NCBI GenBank assembly: GCA_026415715.1
Contig: JAOAGO010000011.1
Location: 1-64,000 of the forward strand
Length of the DNA stretch: 64,000 bases
DNA from: Chitinophagaceae bacterium
GTDB lineage: Bacteria; Bacteroidota; Bacteroidia; Chitinophagales; Chitinophagaceae
Reading direction: 5' to 3'
The first letter of the stretch is position 1. The number at the start of each line of letters is the position of its first letter. Shown here one piece after another: positions 14,384-16,614 of this stretch. Below the pieces are notes generated by a model. That model worked only from the letters and a program-made list of their open reading frames with translations. It searched no databases and was not told the origin of the DNA. Both the position numbers and the translations under genes were made by a program.

Positions 14384-15452
14384 AGTACTCAGCCAGGCCC
14401 GCAAAGTTCTTGATGCGGTGGCTTCGGTATATCAACATCAATGGGAGTATAATGAAGGAAAAATCGGAGCGGCAGCCATAGACGCCACCGGTACAGCCTT
14501 ACCGCAACAAACACTTGAGTTGTGTATGGAAAGTGATGCGATATTGTTTGGGGCTGTTGGCCATCCCCGCTATGATAACGACCCGAAAGCTGCCGTTCGG
14601 CCGGAACAGGGCATACTGGGTTTGCGCAAAGCACTGGAACTGTATGCCAACATCAGGCCCATACAAACCTATGCGGCTCTGCGTCACCTTTCTCCGATTC
14701 ATCTGAAACGTAAGGAAGAAGTAAACTTTATTATTTTCAGAGAACTGACGGCCGGAATTTATTTCGGCGATAAAGAAACAACAAATAACGGAAGCACCGC
14801 GGTAGATACCTGCAAGTACAGCAAAAATGAAGTGGAACGAATAGCCCGCATGGCATTTGAATATGCGCTCGGCAGAAAAAGAAAACTCACGCTGGTAGAT
14901 AAAGCCAATGTACTGGAAACCTCACGCCTTTGGCGCAGGACAATACAGGAGTTGAGCGCTCAGTATCCCGAAGTGAGTGTGGAATATATGTATGTGGACA
15001 ATGCGGCCATGCAGATTATCCTGAACCCTTATCAGTTTGATGTGATACTTACCGAAAATATGTTTGGCGATATTCTCAGCGATGAAGCCAGTGTGCTTTG
15101 CGGATCGCTGGGTATGTTGCCTTCAGCGTCGTTGGGCGAACATACCGCCTTATTTGAGCCTATACACGGATCATATCCGCAGGCGGCCGGCAAAGATATT
15201 GCCAACCCGATCGGAGCCATTCTGTCAGCAGCCCTGATGCTGGAATATTTCGGACTGAAAGAAGAAGCCGGACATGTACGCGATGCCGTAGAGTGGTCGC
15301 TGGAAAATCGTTTTGTCACAAAAGACATTGATACCATCAATTTTTACTTCACCTCTACGGTAGGTGATTTGATAGCGGATTACATCACAGGCCGCATTCC
15401 CGATTCGGTGAAACAGGAAAATATTCTGTTAAGAAAATCTACCATTATATAA
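14337..15452 (+). CDS. leuB: 3-isopropylmalate dehydrogenase
   Basis: NAD-dependent oxidative decarboxylation of 3-isopropylmalate to 2-ketoisocaproate. 371 residues, normal length. Seen: [11 protein letters not shown] at the N-terminus, the substrate loop [24 protein letters not shown], the metal-binding [19 protein letters not shown], and the NAD-binding GSAP-equivalent [20 protein letters not shown]. The ATG at 14337 is chosen over 14313 because the family begins right before the ITLLPGDG strand. The leuD/leuB overlap of 47 bp is unusual but both frames are intact. A weak hairpin follows the stop. Confidence 0.95.
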
Positions 15453-15473: not shown

Positions 15474-15492
15474 AAAAAAAATACCAAAGTTC

Positions 15493-15523
15493 TTTGTTTG
15501 CTGAGCGGGCCGTTGTACTTTTG
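15493..15523 (+). promoter_or_regulatory. Bacteroidota-type promoter of the ilv leader
   Basis: TTTG at 15493-15496 and TACTTTTG at 15516-15523 match the minus-33 TTTG and minus-7 TAnnTTTG consensus, with a 19-bp spacer. The predicted transcript start falls at about 15528-15531, only a few bases before the leader ATG at 15534, so the leader mRNA would be nearly leaderless. Confidence 0.65.
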
Positions 15524-15533
15524 AATAAGTACA

Positions 15534-15629
15534 ATGAAAAGTAACGCTACACATATCATTCGCATCGCCCGACGAATTACCATAATGATTGTGGTGATTA
15601 TACTTCTTTCCACAGGCGGTGCTGTATAA
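15534..15629 (+). CDS. ilv operon leader peptide (31 aa, Ile/Val/Leu-rich)
   Basis: A 31-codon ORF from ATG 15534 to TAA 15627-15629. Between codons 8 and 25 it has eight Ile, two Val and two Leu codons, with the dense run ITIMIVVIILL; a third Val is the last codon. Scarcity of charged Ile-, Val- or Leu-tRNA would stall the ribosome in this run. The last codons (Gly-Gly-Ala-Val) form the left arm of an antiterminator. A terminator then follows at 15665-15693 and ilvE starts at 15703. The layout is that of amino-acid attenuators such as enterobacterial ilvGMEDA. The peptide itself has no other expected function. Confidence 0.85.
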   Translation: MKSNATHIIRIARRITIMIVVIILLSTGGAV

Positions 15630-15693
15630 ATGTGTAACTGATAATAAAATAGAAAACGCAACAGCCCGCCGAAATTTCCGGCGGGTTTTTTTT
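15615..15693 (+). promoter_or_regulatory. ilv transcription attenuator (antiterminator/terminator)
   Basis: Terminator: arms CCCGCCG (15665-15671) and CGGCGGG (15679-15685), 7-nt loop, then eight T (15686-15693). Antiterminator: GGCGG (15615-15619) and GCTGT (15621-15625), with one bulged T at 15620, pair with ACAGC-CCGCC at 15661-15670. That gives ten base pairs which occupy the left arm of the terminator. A ribosome stalled in the Ile/Val/Leu codons leaves 15615-15625 free, so the antiterminator forms. A ribosome at the stop codon (15627) covers it, so the terminator forms. The terminator ends 9 bp before the ilvE ATG. Confidence 0.85.
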
Positions 15694-15702
15694 GATCAGA
15701 TT

Positions 15703-16614
15703 ATGGGCATGAATGTATATTATCATAATGAAACCATCGTATATCTGAATGGAGAATTCATAAAGGCTTCAGAGGCCAAGGTGGATTTGTACTGTCAGAC
15801 GCTTCATTACGGCTACGGCGTTTTCGAGGGCATCAGAAGCTACAAGACGTCAAACGGCAGCACCCGGATTTTCAAAGCCAAAGAGCATTTTGAGCGCATG
15901 AAAAACTCAGCGCGGTTGTTGGGAATGCCTTACCCCTGGCATACGGAACAACTCATACAGGTAACCTACGAGTTGCTGAAAAGAAACCAACTGCAGGATG
16001 CCTACATCCGCCCGTTGGTTTATGCGCCTGCCAATATGGTATTGGGCCTTAATGAAGAGTCTTTTCTGGTGATTGAAGTGTGGCCGATGAAACCTTATCT
16101 GGGAGAAAAATTACTTCGCATAGGAATTTCCTCTTATTGCAGGCCTCATCCGAAATCAATTCATCCCGAAGCCAAAGCCTGCGGGCATTACGTCAACTCT
16201 ATTCTGGCCAGCGCCGAAATGAAATCCAAAGGGTACGACGAAGCCCTCATGCTCGACGTAAACGGATATATAGCTGAGGCGCCGGGGGCCAATGTATTTC
16301 TGGAAAAAGAAGGAAAATTATTTACACCGCCACCGGGCCATATTCTTCCGGGCATCACGAGGGCTACCATCATGGAATTGTGTATGGAATTGAATATTCC
16401 GGTTGAAGAAAAACCGATTCATCCCGAAGAGTTACGACGGGCCGATGCAGTATTTTACTGCGGTACCGCCGCCGAAGTCATCGGATGGGAAAGTGTGGAA
16501 GGGCATCGTTTTTCTCTGCCATGGCATAAAACAATCAGCAGCGAAATTCAGAAAGCATATAAAGAAAAGGTAACCTTATCCGGAAGGTATCAGCCGCAGG
16601 CCATGGAATTATAA
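15703..16614 (+). CDS. ilvE: Branched-chain amino-acid aminotransferase
   Basis: A PLP class IV transaminase that makes Ile, Val and Leu from their keto acids using glutamate. 303 residues. Seen: VYLNGEFIKASEAKVDLYCQ, HYGYGVFEGIRSYKT, the catalytic Lys in PEAKACGHYVNSILA, EAPGANVFLEK, and GTAAEVIGW. The long frame begins at 15619, but that start lies inside the leader-peptide region and the terminator, so the ATG at 15703 (or 15709) is used. It is the first structural gene after the attenuator and 3 bp from ilvD. Glutamate for the reaction could come from the gltBD genes further down. Confidence 0.95.
   Translation: MGMNVYYHNETIVYLNGEFIKASEAKVDLYCQTLHYGYGVFEGIRSYKTSNGSTRIFKAKEHFERMKNSARLLGMPYPWHTEQLIQVTYELLKRNQLQDAYIRPLVYAPANMVLGLNEESFLVIEVWPMKPYLGEKLLRIGISSYCRPHPKSIHPEAKACGHYVNSILASAEMKSKGYDEALMLDVNGYIAEAPGANVFLEKEGKLFTPPPGHILPGITRATIMELCMELNIPVEEKPIHPEELRRADAVFYCGTAAEVIGWESVEGHRFSLPWHKTISSEIQKAYKEKVTLSGRYQPQAMEL

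Follow-up and report, generated by a model that had tools for sequence, protein, structure and literature searches.

The window, that is, the whole 64-kb stretch of DNA that was analyzed, belongs to a host genome of 2.63 Mb in 96 contigs and carries at 15488–15693 a candidate attenuator that sits between leuB and ilvE. Past the leuB stop codon at 15452 come a promoter, an ORF of 31 codons, and an intrinsic terminator, and a gap of ∼10 nt separates the U run of the terminator from the start of ilvE at 15703. The gene order 3′ of the element is ilvE-ilvD-ilvB-ilvN-ilvC-ilvA, with ilvE first and each gene above its NCBIfam cut-off; the large ORF 3′ of ilvA is presumably gltB. The 5′ neighbors 2-isopropylmalate synthase, leuC, leuD, and leuB were also above NCBIfam cut-offs, the 2-isopropylmalate synthase being a leuA-like gene (∼10841) with NF002086 above the cut-off and TIGR00973 just below. 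The features of the locus are as follows.

15488–15523, + strand: promoter, consisting of AGTTCTTTG at 15488–15496 (which contains the −33 TTTG, 15493–15496) and the −7 element TACTTTTG at 15516–15523
15513–15534, no strand: perfect 8-bp DNA palindrome TTGTACTT-6-AAGTACAA over the −7 box and the predicted start, a possible operator
15534–15629, + strand: leader ORF of 31 codons plus TAA (15627–15629), peptide MKSNATHIIRIARRITIMIVVIILLSTGGAV
15548–15569, + strand: strand 1 (15548–15554 and 15562–15569), with partners at 15615–15622 and 15630–15636
15615–15625, + strand: strand 2, the antiterminator left arm, in codons 28–31 (Gly Gly Ala Val)
15661–15670, + strand: strand 3, the antiterminator right arm ACAGCCCGCC, which also serves the 5′ arm of the terminator
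15663–15693, + strand: intrinsic terminator, stem 15663–15671/15679–15687 and U run to 15693
15703–16614, + strand: ilvE, branched-chain amino acid transaminase (NF005146 and TIGR01122 above the NCBIfam cut-off)

The promoter, leader ORF, antiterminator, and overlapping terminator all lie where an earlier note on this DNA had placed them; the terminator, however, does not start at 15665 as that note had it, its stem beginning two bases earlier at 15663. In the leader, 8 of 10 consecutive codons specify Ile, Leu, or Val (ILV), and strand 1 covers part of the Ile codons. The antiterminator joins GGCGG-U-GCUGU at 15615–15625 to 15661–15670 through 10 pairs with one bulged U at 15620, and the helix is lengthened by 15631–15635 pairing with 15656–15660. 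Its left arm was correctly assigned to the final leader codons, where a ribosome at the stop would sit: strand 2 (codons 28–31) lies immediately 5′ of the leader stop codon. The antiterminator, folded without strand 4, reached −19.6 kcal/mol, a stability equaled by 3 of 200 shuffles, and the terminator reached −16.8 kcal/mol, matched by none of 200. The earlier list of alternative structures was right about these two stems but lacked a third pairing, that of strand 1 with strand 2 (1:2), part of a structure whose −28.5 kcal/mol was equaled by 1 of 200 shuffles. The whole leader fold had a z score of −3.9. Since the 1:2 pairing is present, the classical trp/his/ilv scheme of strands 1–4 is complete, and the locus combines an ORF of cognate codons, a terminator, a mutually exclusive antiterminator, and a 1:2 stem.

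Across the 64-kb window, this was the single case on the + strand of an ATG ORF of 9–50 codons with a residue run and a terminator. Two such matches were found on the − strand (22497–22390 and 3512–3369), neither of them leader-like, and no leader with a terminator was found at the leuA-like gene of the window.

We next turn to relatives, in which conservation had been set beforehand as the test on which the reading could fail. IlvE matches at E 1e-45 or better occurred in 55 of 147 family genomes (counted from the listing) and in 19 of 42 genus genomes, the remaining matches among the 145 of 147 family genomes being distant aminotransferases. These gave 73 distinct ilvE loci, the window's among them, of which two came from named genomes; the family loci were gathered except those of G047. 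When a leader was called on at least 6 ILV in 10 codons plus a terminator, the leader ORF and terminator were present at 69 of the 73 loci (absent from L015, L025, L071, and L080), so that the reading passed this test. A stricter rule (ATG start, at most 50 codons) retained 66 of 73 loci, whereas the reverse strand yielded none of 73 and dinucleotide shuffling 1 of 219.

The Ile, Val, and Leu runs described earlier are true of the window, but the relatives have mainly Ile and Val in a III-VVV-III arrangement, and two Leu codons ahead of strand 2 are peculiar to the window's own leader. This leader is diverged, many relatives approximating M-L-K-N..Y-N-V-I...-I-I-I-V-V-V-I-I-I-(P/S)..-N-G-G-G-A. 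Residue frequencies in the leaders were 0.229 for Ile, 0.142 for Val, and 0.066 for Leu; Leu is thus the rarest of the three, indicating that the family is mainly an Ile/Val sensor. In 60 aligned leaders, codon-position entropy was 0.95, 0.43, and 1.26 bits for positions 1, 2, and 3, and nearly all second positions within the run were T, the base common to Ile, Val, and Leu codons, with variable third positions. These data also bear on the possibility that the ORF's product is a small membrane peptide with a function of its own, the terminator being independent of its translation. The peptide is indeed hydrophobic, and close relatives share an N terminus resembling MLKN..YNVI; however, 68 distinct peptides were found among the 69 leaders, what is kept is the run of Ile/Val codons and the Gly codons of strand 2, and the residue of the run follows the operon (His, Phe/Tyr, or Trp; see below), which makes such a peptide very unlikely.

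The stems were examined in an alignment of 60 sequences, 9 of the 69 leaders being excluded. In the terminator, 87.2% of cells were paired; 7 of 12 pairs showed double changes, and none of 500 column shuffles attained its covariation score. The antiterminator was paired in 91.1% of cells versus 41–60% with a slid partner, but its core is nearly invariant and double changes were few (three of its nine pairs, each in a single sequence, a level attained by 4 of 500 shuffles). For this reason the antiterminator rests on helix strength and on the slid and shuffled controls rather than on covariation. Antiterminator helices formed no part of leader selection. Over the 69 leaders, the antiterminator score was 22.0 for native sequences, 20.5 when strand 3 was swapped for that of another locus, and 14.8 when strand 2 was shuffled; native exceeded the shuffle mean in 67 of 69 leaders and exceeded swapped in only 49, the native-swapped difference being small. 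At individual loci, the native antiterminator was often outscored by the best of 50 shuffles, and only set averages are used as evidence. The 1:2 stem, strong in the window, was moderate across the set (22.1 native, 19.9 swapped, 18.0 shuffled; 44 of the 69 leaders above the swapped and 55 above the shuffled means).

In most relatives, the Gly-codon arm GGAGGTGG of strand 2 pairs with CCGCCTCC. This arm (alignment columns 57–64) resembles a strong Shine-Dalgarno sequence, a motif absent from this phylum, and in other bacteria it might be costly. A coordinated change of strands 2, 3, and 4 in the window, proposed from one of the three double changes, at columns 59/117 and found in the window alone, was rejected: the window antiterminator is slid by 3 nt relative to the family register, so the 59/117 pair is probably unused and was not counted.

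We also explored leaders before other operons. Run against 248 genomes of the order at E 0.01, an ilv-leader model matched 61, and the 36 match regions that were read held ILV leaders before ilvE, ilvD, ilvC, and the gene for an ACT-domain protein. Many of the weak matches were chance, and some pointed to leaders before hisG and pheA. In the window's own genome, His, Phe/Tyr, and Trp leaders, each with a terminator and a possible antiterminator, precede hisG (L190, MKIFAHTHHHDFTPPE), pheA (L223, MNNYKAYRFFGYYYFFAAKRPGMLSDN), and trpE (L344, MVRFLGHTWRWHTTPLGL). Matches to HisG and PheA were present in 39 and 38, respectively, of 79 genomes of the order. A His run with a terminator preceded hisG in 17 of the best 30 loci, a count that includes the doubtful L189 (FY-run control, 2 of 30), and an FY run preceded pheA in 26 of 30 (His-run control, 0 of 30). 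At trpE, a Trp run was found in 25 of 30 loci, with 0 on the reverse strand; none of these trpE-type genes reaches the TIGR00564 cut-off, and the genome's own gene has anthranilate synthase and chorismate-binding domains. Antiterminator scores averaged 20.8 versus 13.9 shuffled for His (16 of 17 above) and 21.2 versus 14.6 for Phe (25 of 26 above); those for Trp were mixed, several loci scoring no better than the shuffle mean.

A comparable scan gave a leader at 0 of 30 leuA loci; in 26 of these, either 150 nt or more lay unoccupied upstream or the same strand had no ORF of 100 codons there, so that most could have held a leader. For thrA it yielded 1 of 20, a doubtful Thr/Ile candidate (L323) that ends in STTTTIR and whose weak terminator overlaps the stop codon. 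In the wider class, where IlvD matches were found in 41 of 197 genomes, an ILV run of at least 7 plus a terminator occurred at 14 of 29 IlvD loci, four of them doubtful (reverse strand 0, or 2 with a run of 6), and pheA leaders occurred at 16 of 26 loci (reverse strand 2). The loci called doubtful, L174, L175, L181, and L183, have a conserved hydrophobic ORF of 40–48 residues (MIIFLILLVIFLIIYL... in three of them) that lies ∼94–100 nt before ilvD and ends 20–23 nt before the terminator; it may be a leader or a small membrane protein. Leaders stand in tandem before ilvE in L119 and ilvD in L122 (ILV), before hisG in L123 (His), and before pheA in L238 and perhaps L235 (Phe).

One alternative is that the hairpin is a mere terminator of the leu genes, with the ORF and the complementary arm coincidental: it is the first terminator-like hairpin past leuB (stop codon at 15452) and would halt leu transcripts, but it lies ∼210 nt beyond leuB behind a conserved promoter, the codon pattern and antiterminator are common to 69 leaders, and comparable leaders precede ilvD and ilvC in other gene orders, all of which renders that idea highly improbable.

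We next examined the promoter. In 58 of 69 leaders, the upstream element AGTTCTTT was located 13–21 nt 5′ of the −7 box, the distance in the window being 20 nt. A good −7 box was present in 66, and in 61 of these a distance of 10–21 nt (median 17) separated its end from the leader ATG; in the window the ATG is 10 nt past the end of the box. PMC6847099 gives the −7 consensus of Flavobacterium johnsoniae as TAHHTTTG with G at −5 and describes a diverged sigma factor in Bacteroidota, a natural lack of Shine-Dalgarno sequences, and, for F. johnsoniae, leaders longer than 10 nt (mean 33) for 87% of the predicted transcripts that have a probable promoter. By the rule of G at −5, transcription is predicted to start at about 15528, giving a predicted 5′ UTR of ∼6 nt for the window ilv leader and a family median of ∼13. 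For the genome's own His and Phe leaders, the −7 box ends 7 and 4 nt before the ATG, with predicted 5′ UTRs of ∼3 and ∼0 nt. A box-ATG spacing of 4–10 nt was found in 9 of 10 His leaders with a strong box (16 examined) and in 9 of 14 such Phe leaders (26 examined); the remaining examined leaders had no strong box and were left out of these counts. The nearly leaderless start of the ORF, already pointed out in the earlier note, thus holds for the predicted starts and is even more marked in the His and Phe leaders.

Tested as an operator common to the family, the palindrome gave a weak signal (native 5.02, swapped 4.49, shuffled 4.00), native exceeding swapped in 42 of 61. Relatives such as L013 have a different palindrome at the same place (GGTGAAATGTA..TACATTTCATC). 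The palindrome of the window, together with the differing ones in some relatives, suggests that a repressor may also act.

Leaders that sense something other than slow translation are also found at ilv genes; T-boxes are known there in other bacteria. ppGpp riboswitches occur at ilv genes elsewhere (PMC10272879). A riboswitch, T-box, or protein-bound leader using the same terminator and antiterminator is nevertheless scarcely credible here. The window had no match to a T-box or any other Rfam leader family at the gathering score, 12 relatives gave 18 Rfam matches up to E 1 that were all below gathering scores, and the codon runs and the position of the stop codon relative to strand 2 are conserved. 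The highest match in this permissive scan was to Phe_leader (38.9 of 55 bits), in L032; the same locus also matched Leu_leader at 33.9 of 50 bits. Rfam membership of the relatives was rejected, the sub-threshold matches, several of them to proteobacterial amino-acid leaders, being taken as shared architecture only.

The claim that amino-acid attenuators are little described in Bacteroidota proved true only in part, in that they are not wholly new: PMC2864571 listed a Bacteroid-trp RNA (RF01692) in 2010, and its likeness to the trp leader of E. coli is noted in PMC6414381. The RF01692 model had no match in the window, and 0 of 79 genomes of the order reached its cut-off, with 1 just below; we rejected it as a name for the order's Trp leaders, which occur at 25 of 30 trpE loci despite this result. 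A transcriptome map of Bacteroides thetaiotaomicron (PMC7366714) describes leader-peptide-like sORFs in long 5′ UTRs. Among the matches listed for attenuation and leader peptides in Bacteroidota, no title or abstract opening describes an ilv element. Published precedent among these matches is mainly the in silico Bacteroid-trp. Lopatovskaya et al. (2010) may already predict some Bacteroidota cases.

Returning to attenuation by a translating ribosome, we folded the leaders with the ribosome masked. Masking mid-run left strand 2 free in 67 of the 69 leaders; with strand 4 still absent, five or more antiterminator pairs formed in 67 of 69, versus 116 of 345 when strand 2 was shuffled. Masking at the stop codon gave the terminator in 69 of 69. 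With a stalled ribosome and strand 4 present, the minimum-energy fold kept the terminator in 51 of 69 loci, including the window. The terminator is favored once strand 4 exists, and the switch must therefore depend on the order of folding. Such dependence is usual for ribosome-mediated attenuation.

Parts, conservation, mutual exclusivity, and placement of the elements are established at the level of sequence, and on this basis we hold it very probable that the element controls ilvE-ilvD-ilvB-ilvN-ilvC-ilvA by ribosome-mediated transcription attenuation of the classical trp/his/ilv type. From the same elements we infer where transcription starts, that the leader is translated, that ribosomes stall on it, and that readthrough depends on amino acids. 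RNA polymerase would begin ∼6 nt 5′ of the leader start codon, with a ribosome loading at once on the near-leaderless RNA. With Ile-, Val-, and Leu-tRNA charged, the ribosome would reach the stop codon and cover strand 2 (codons 28–31), and the terminator at 15663–15693 would form. With one of these tRNAs scarce, it would stall on the Ile, Val, or Leu codons, covering strand 1 and leaving strand 2 free; strands 2 and 3 would pair before strand 4 is made, and the polymerase would continue into ilvE. If no ribosome is loaded, 1:2 pairing would sequester strand 2, and transcription would end. In this scheme the Ile/Val/Leu leader and its competing hairpins most likely switch on the branched-chain amino-acid genes at shortage.

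Beyond this locus, we favor the view, with some confidence, that Chitinophagales, and probably much of the wider class, have a general leader-peptide regulon (ilv, his, phe/tyr, and trp), in which many ORFs are leaderless or nearly so and lack a Shine-Dalgarno sequence, so that the first ribosome would trail RNA polymerase from the 5′ end, and in which some loci are tandem. Because ribosome-mediated attenuation needs a ribosome close behind RNA polymerase, the leaders bear on transcription-translation coupling in Bacteroidota, and if the regulon reading is true, such coupling is a widely used regulatory input in this phylum. The set is valuable for covering four pathways within a single genome and for its short 5′ UTRs that lack Shine-Dalgarno sequences, and it opens coupling to test: the four attenuators would serve as ready-made reporters of coupling and of near-leaderless initiation. 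The leaders also supply regulatory annotation for amino-acid operons missed by the Rfam models tried.

The ilvGMEDA, ilvBN, trp, and his attenuators of E. coli have a leader peptide rich in the cognate residue, strands 1–4, and a biosynthetic operon on the 3′ side. The ilv leader described here is like them in its 1:2, 2:3, and 3:4 pairings, its cognate leader, and the biosynthetic operon downstream, and differs from them in having no Shine-Dalgarno sequence, a very short predicted 5′ UTR, a Bacteroidota promoter, and a strand 2 that consists of the last leader codons. Bacteroid-trp (RF01692) is a Trp leader, whereas the present one is for branched-chain amino acids. Similar by description, rather than by sequence or structure, is the Corynebacterium ilvBNC attenuator/ilvB-II motif, a uORF rich in branched-chain amino acids before an ilv operon, in that case ilvBNC and in another phylum (PMC10272879); the same text cites an earlier report that the C. 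glutamicum ilvBNC leader peptide is formed without a ribosome binding site. The ilvB-OMG and ilvB motifs, likewise similar by description, are uORFs of this composition before ilvB in other bacteria that were proposed as attenuators (PMC10272879). Set against these systems, the mechanism is classical; the twist lies in the very short predicted 5′ UTRs, in organisms without Shine-Dalgarno sequences.
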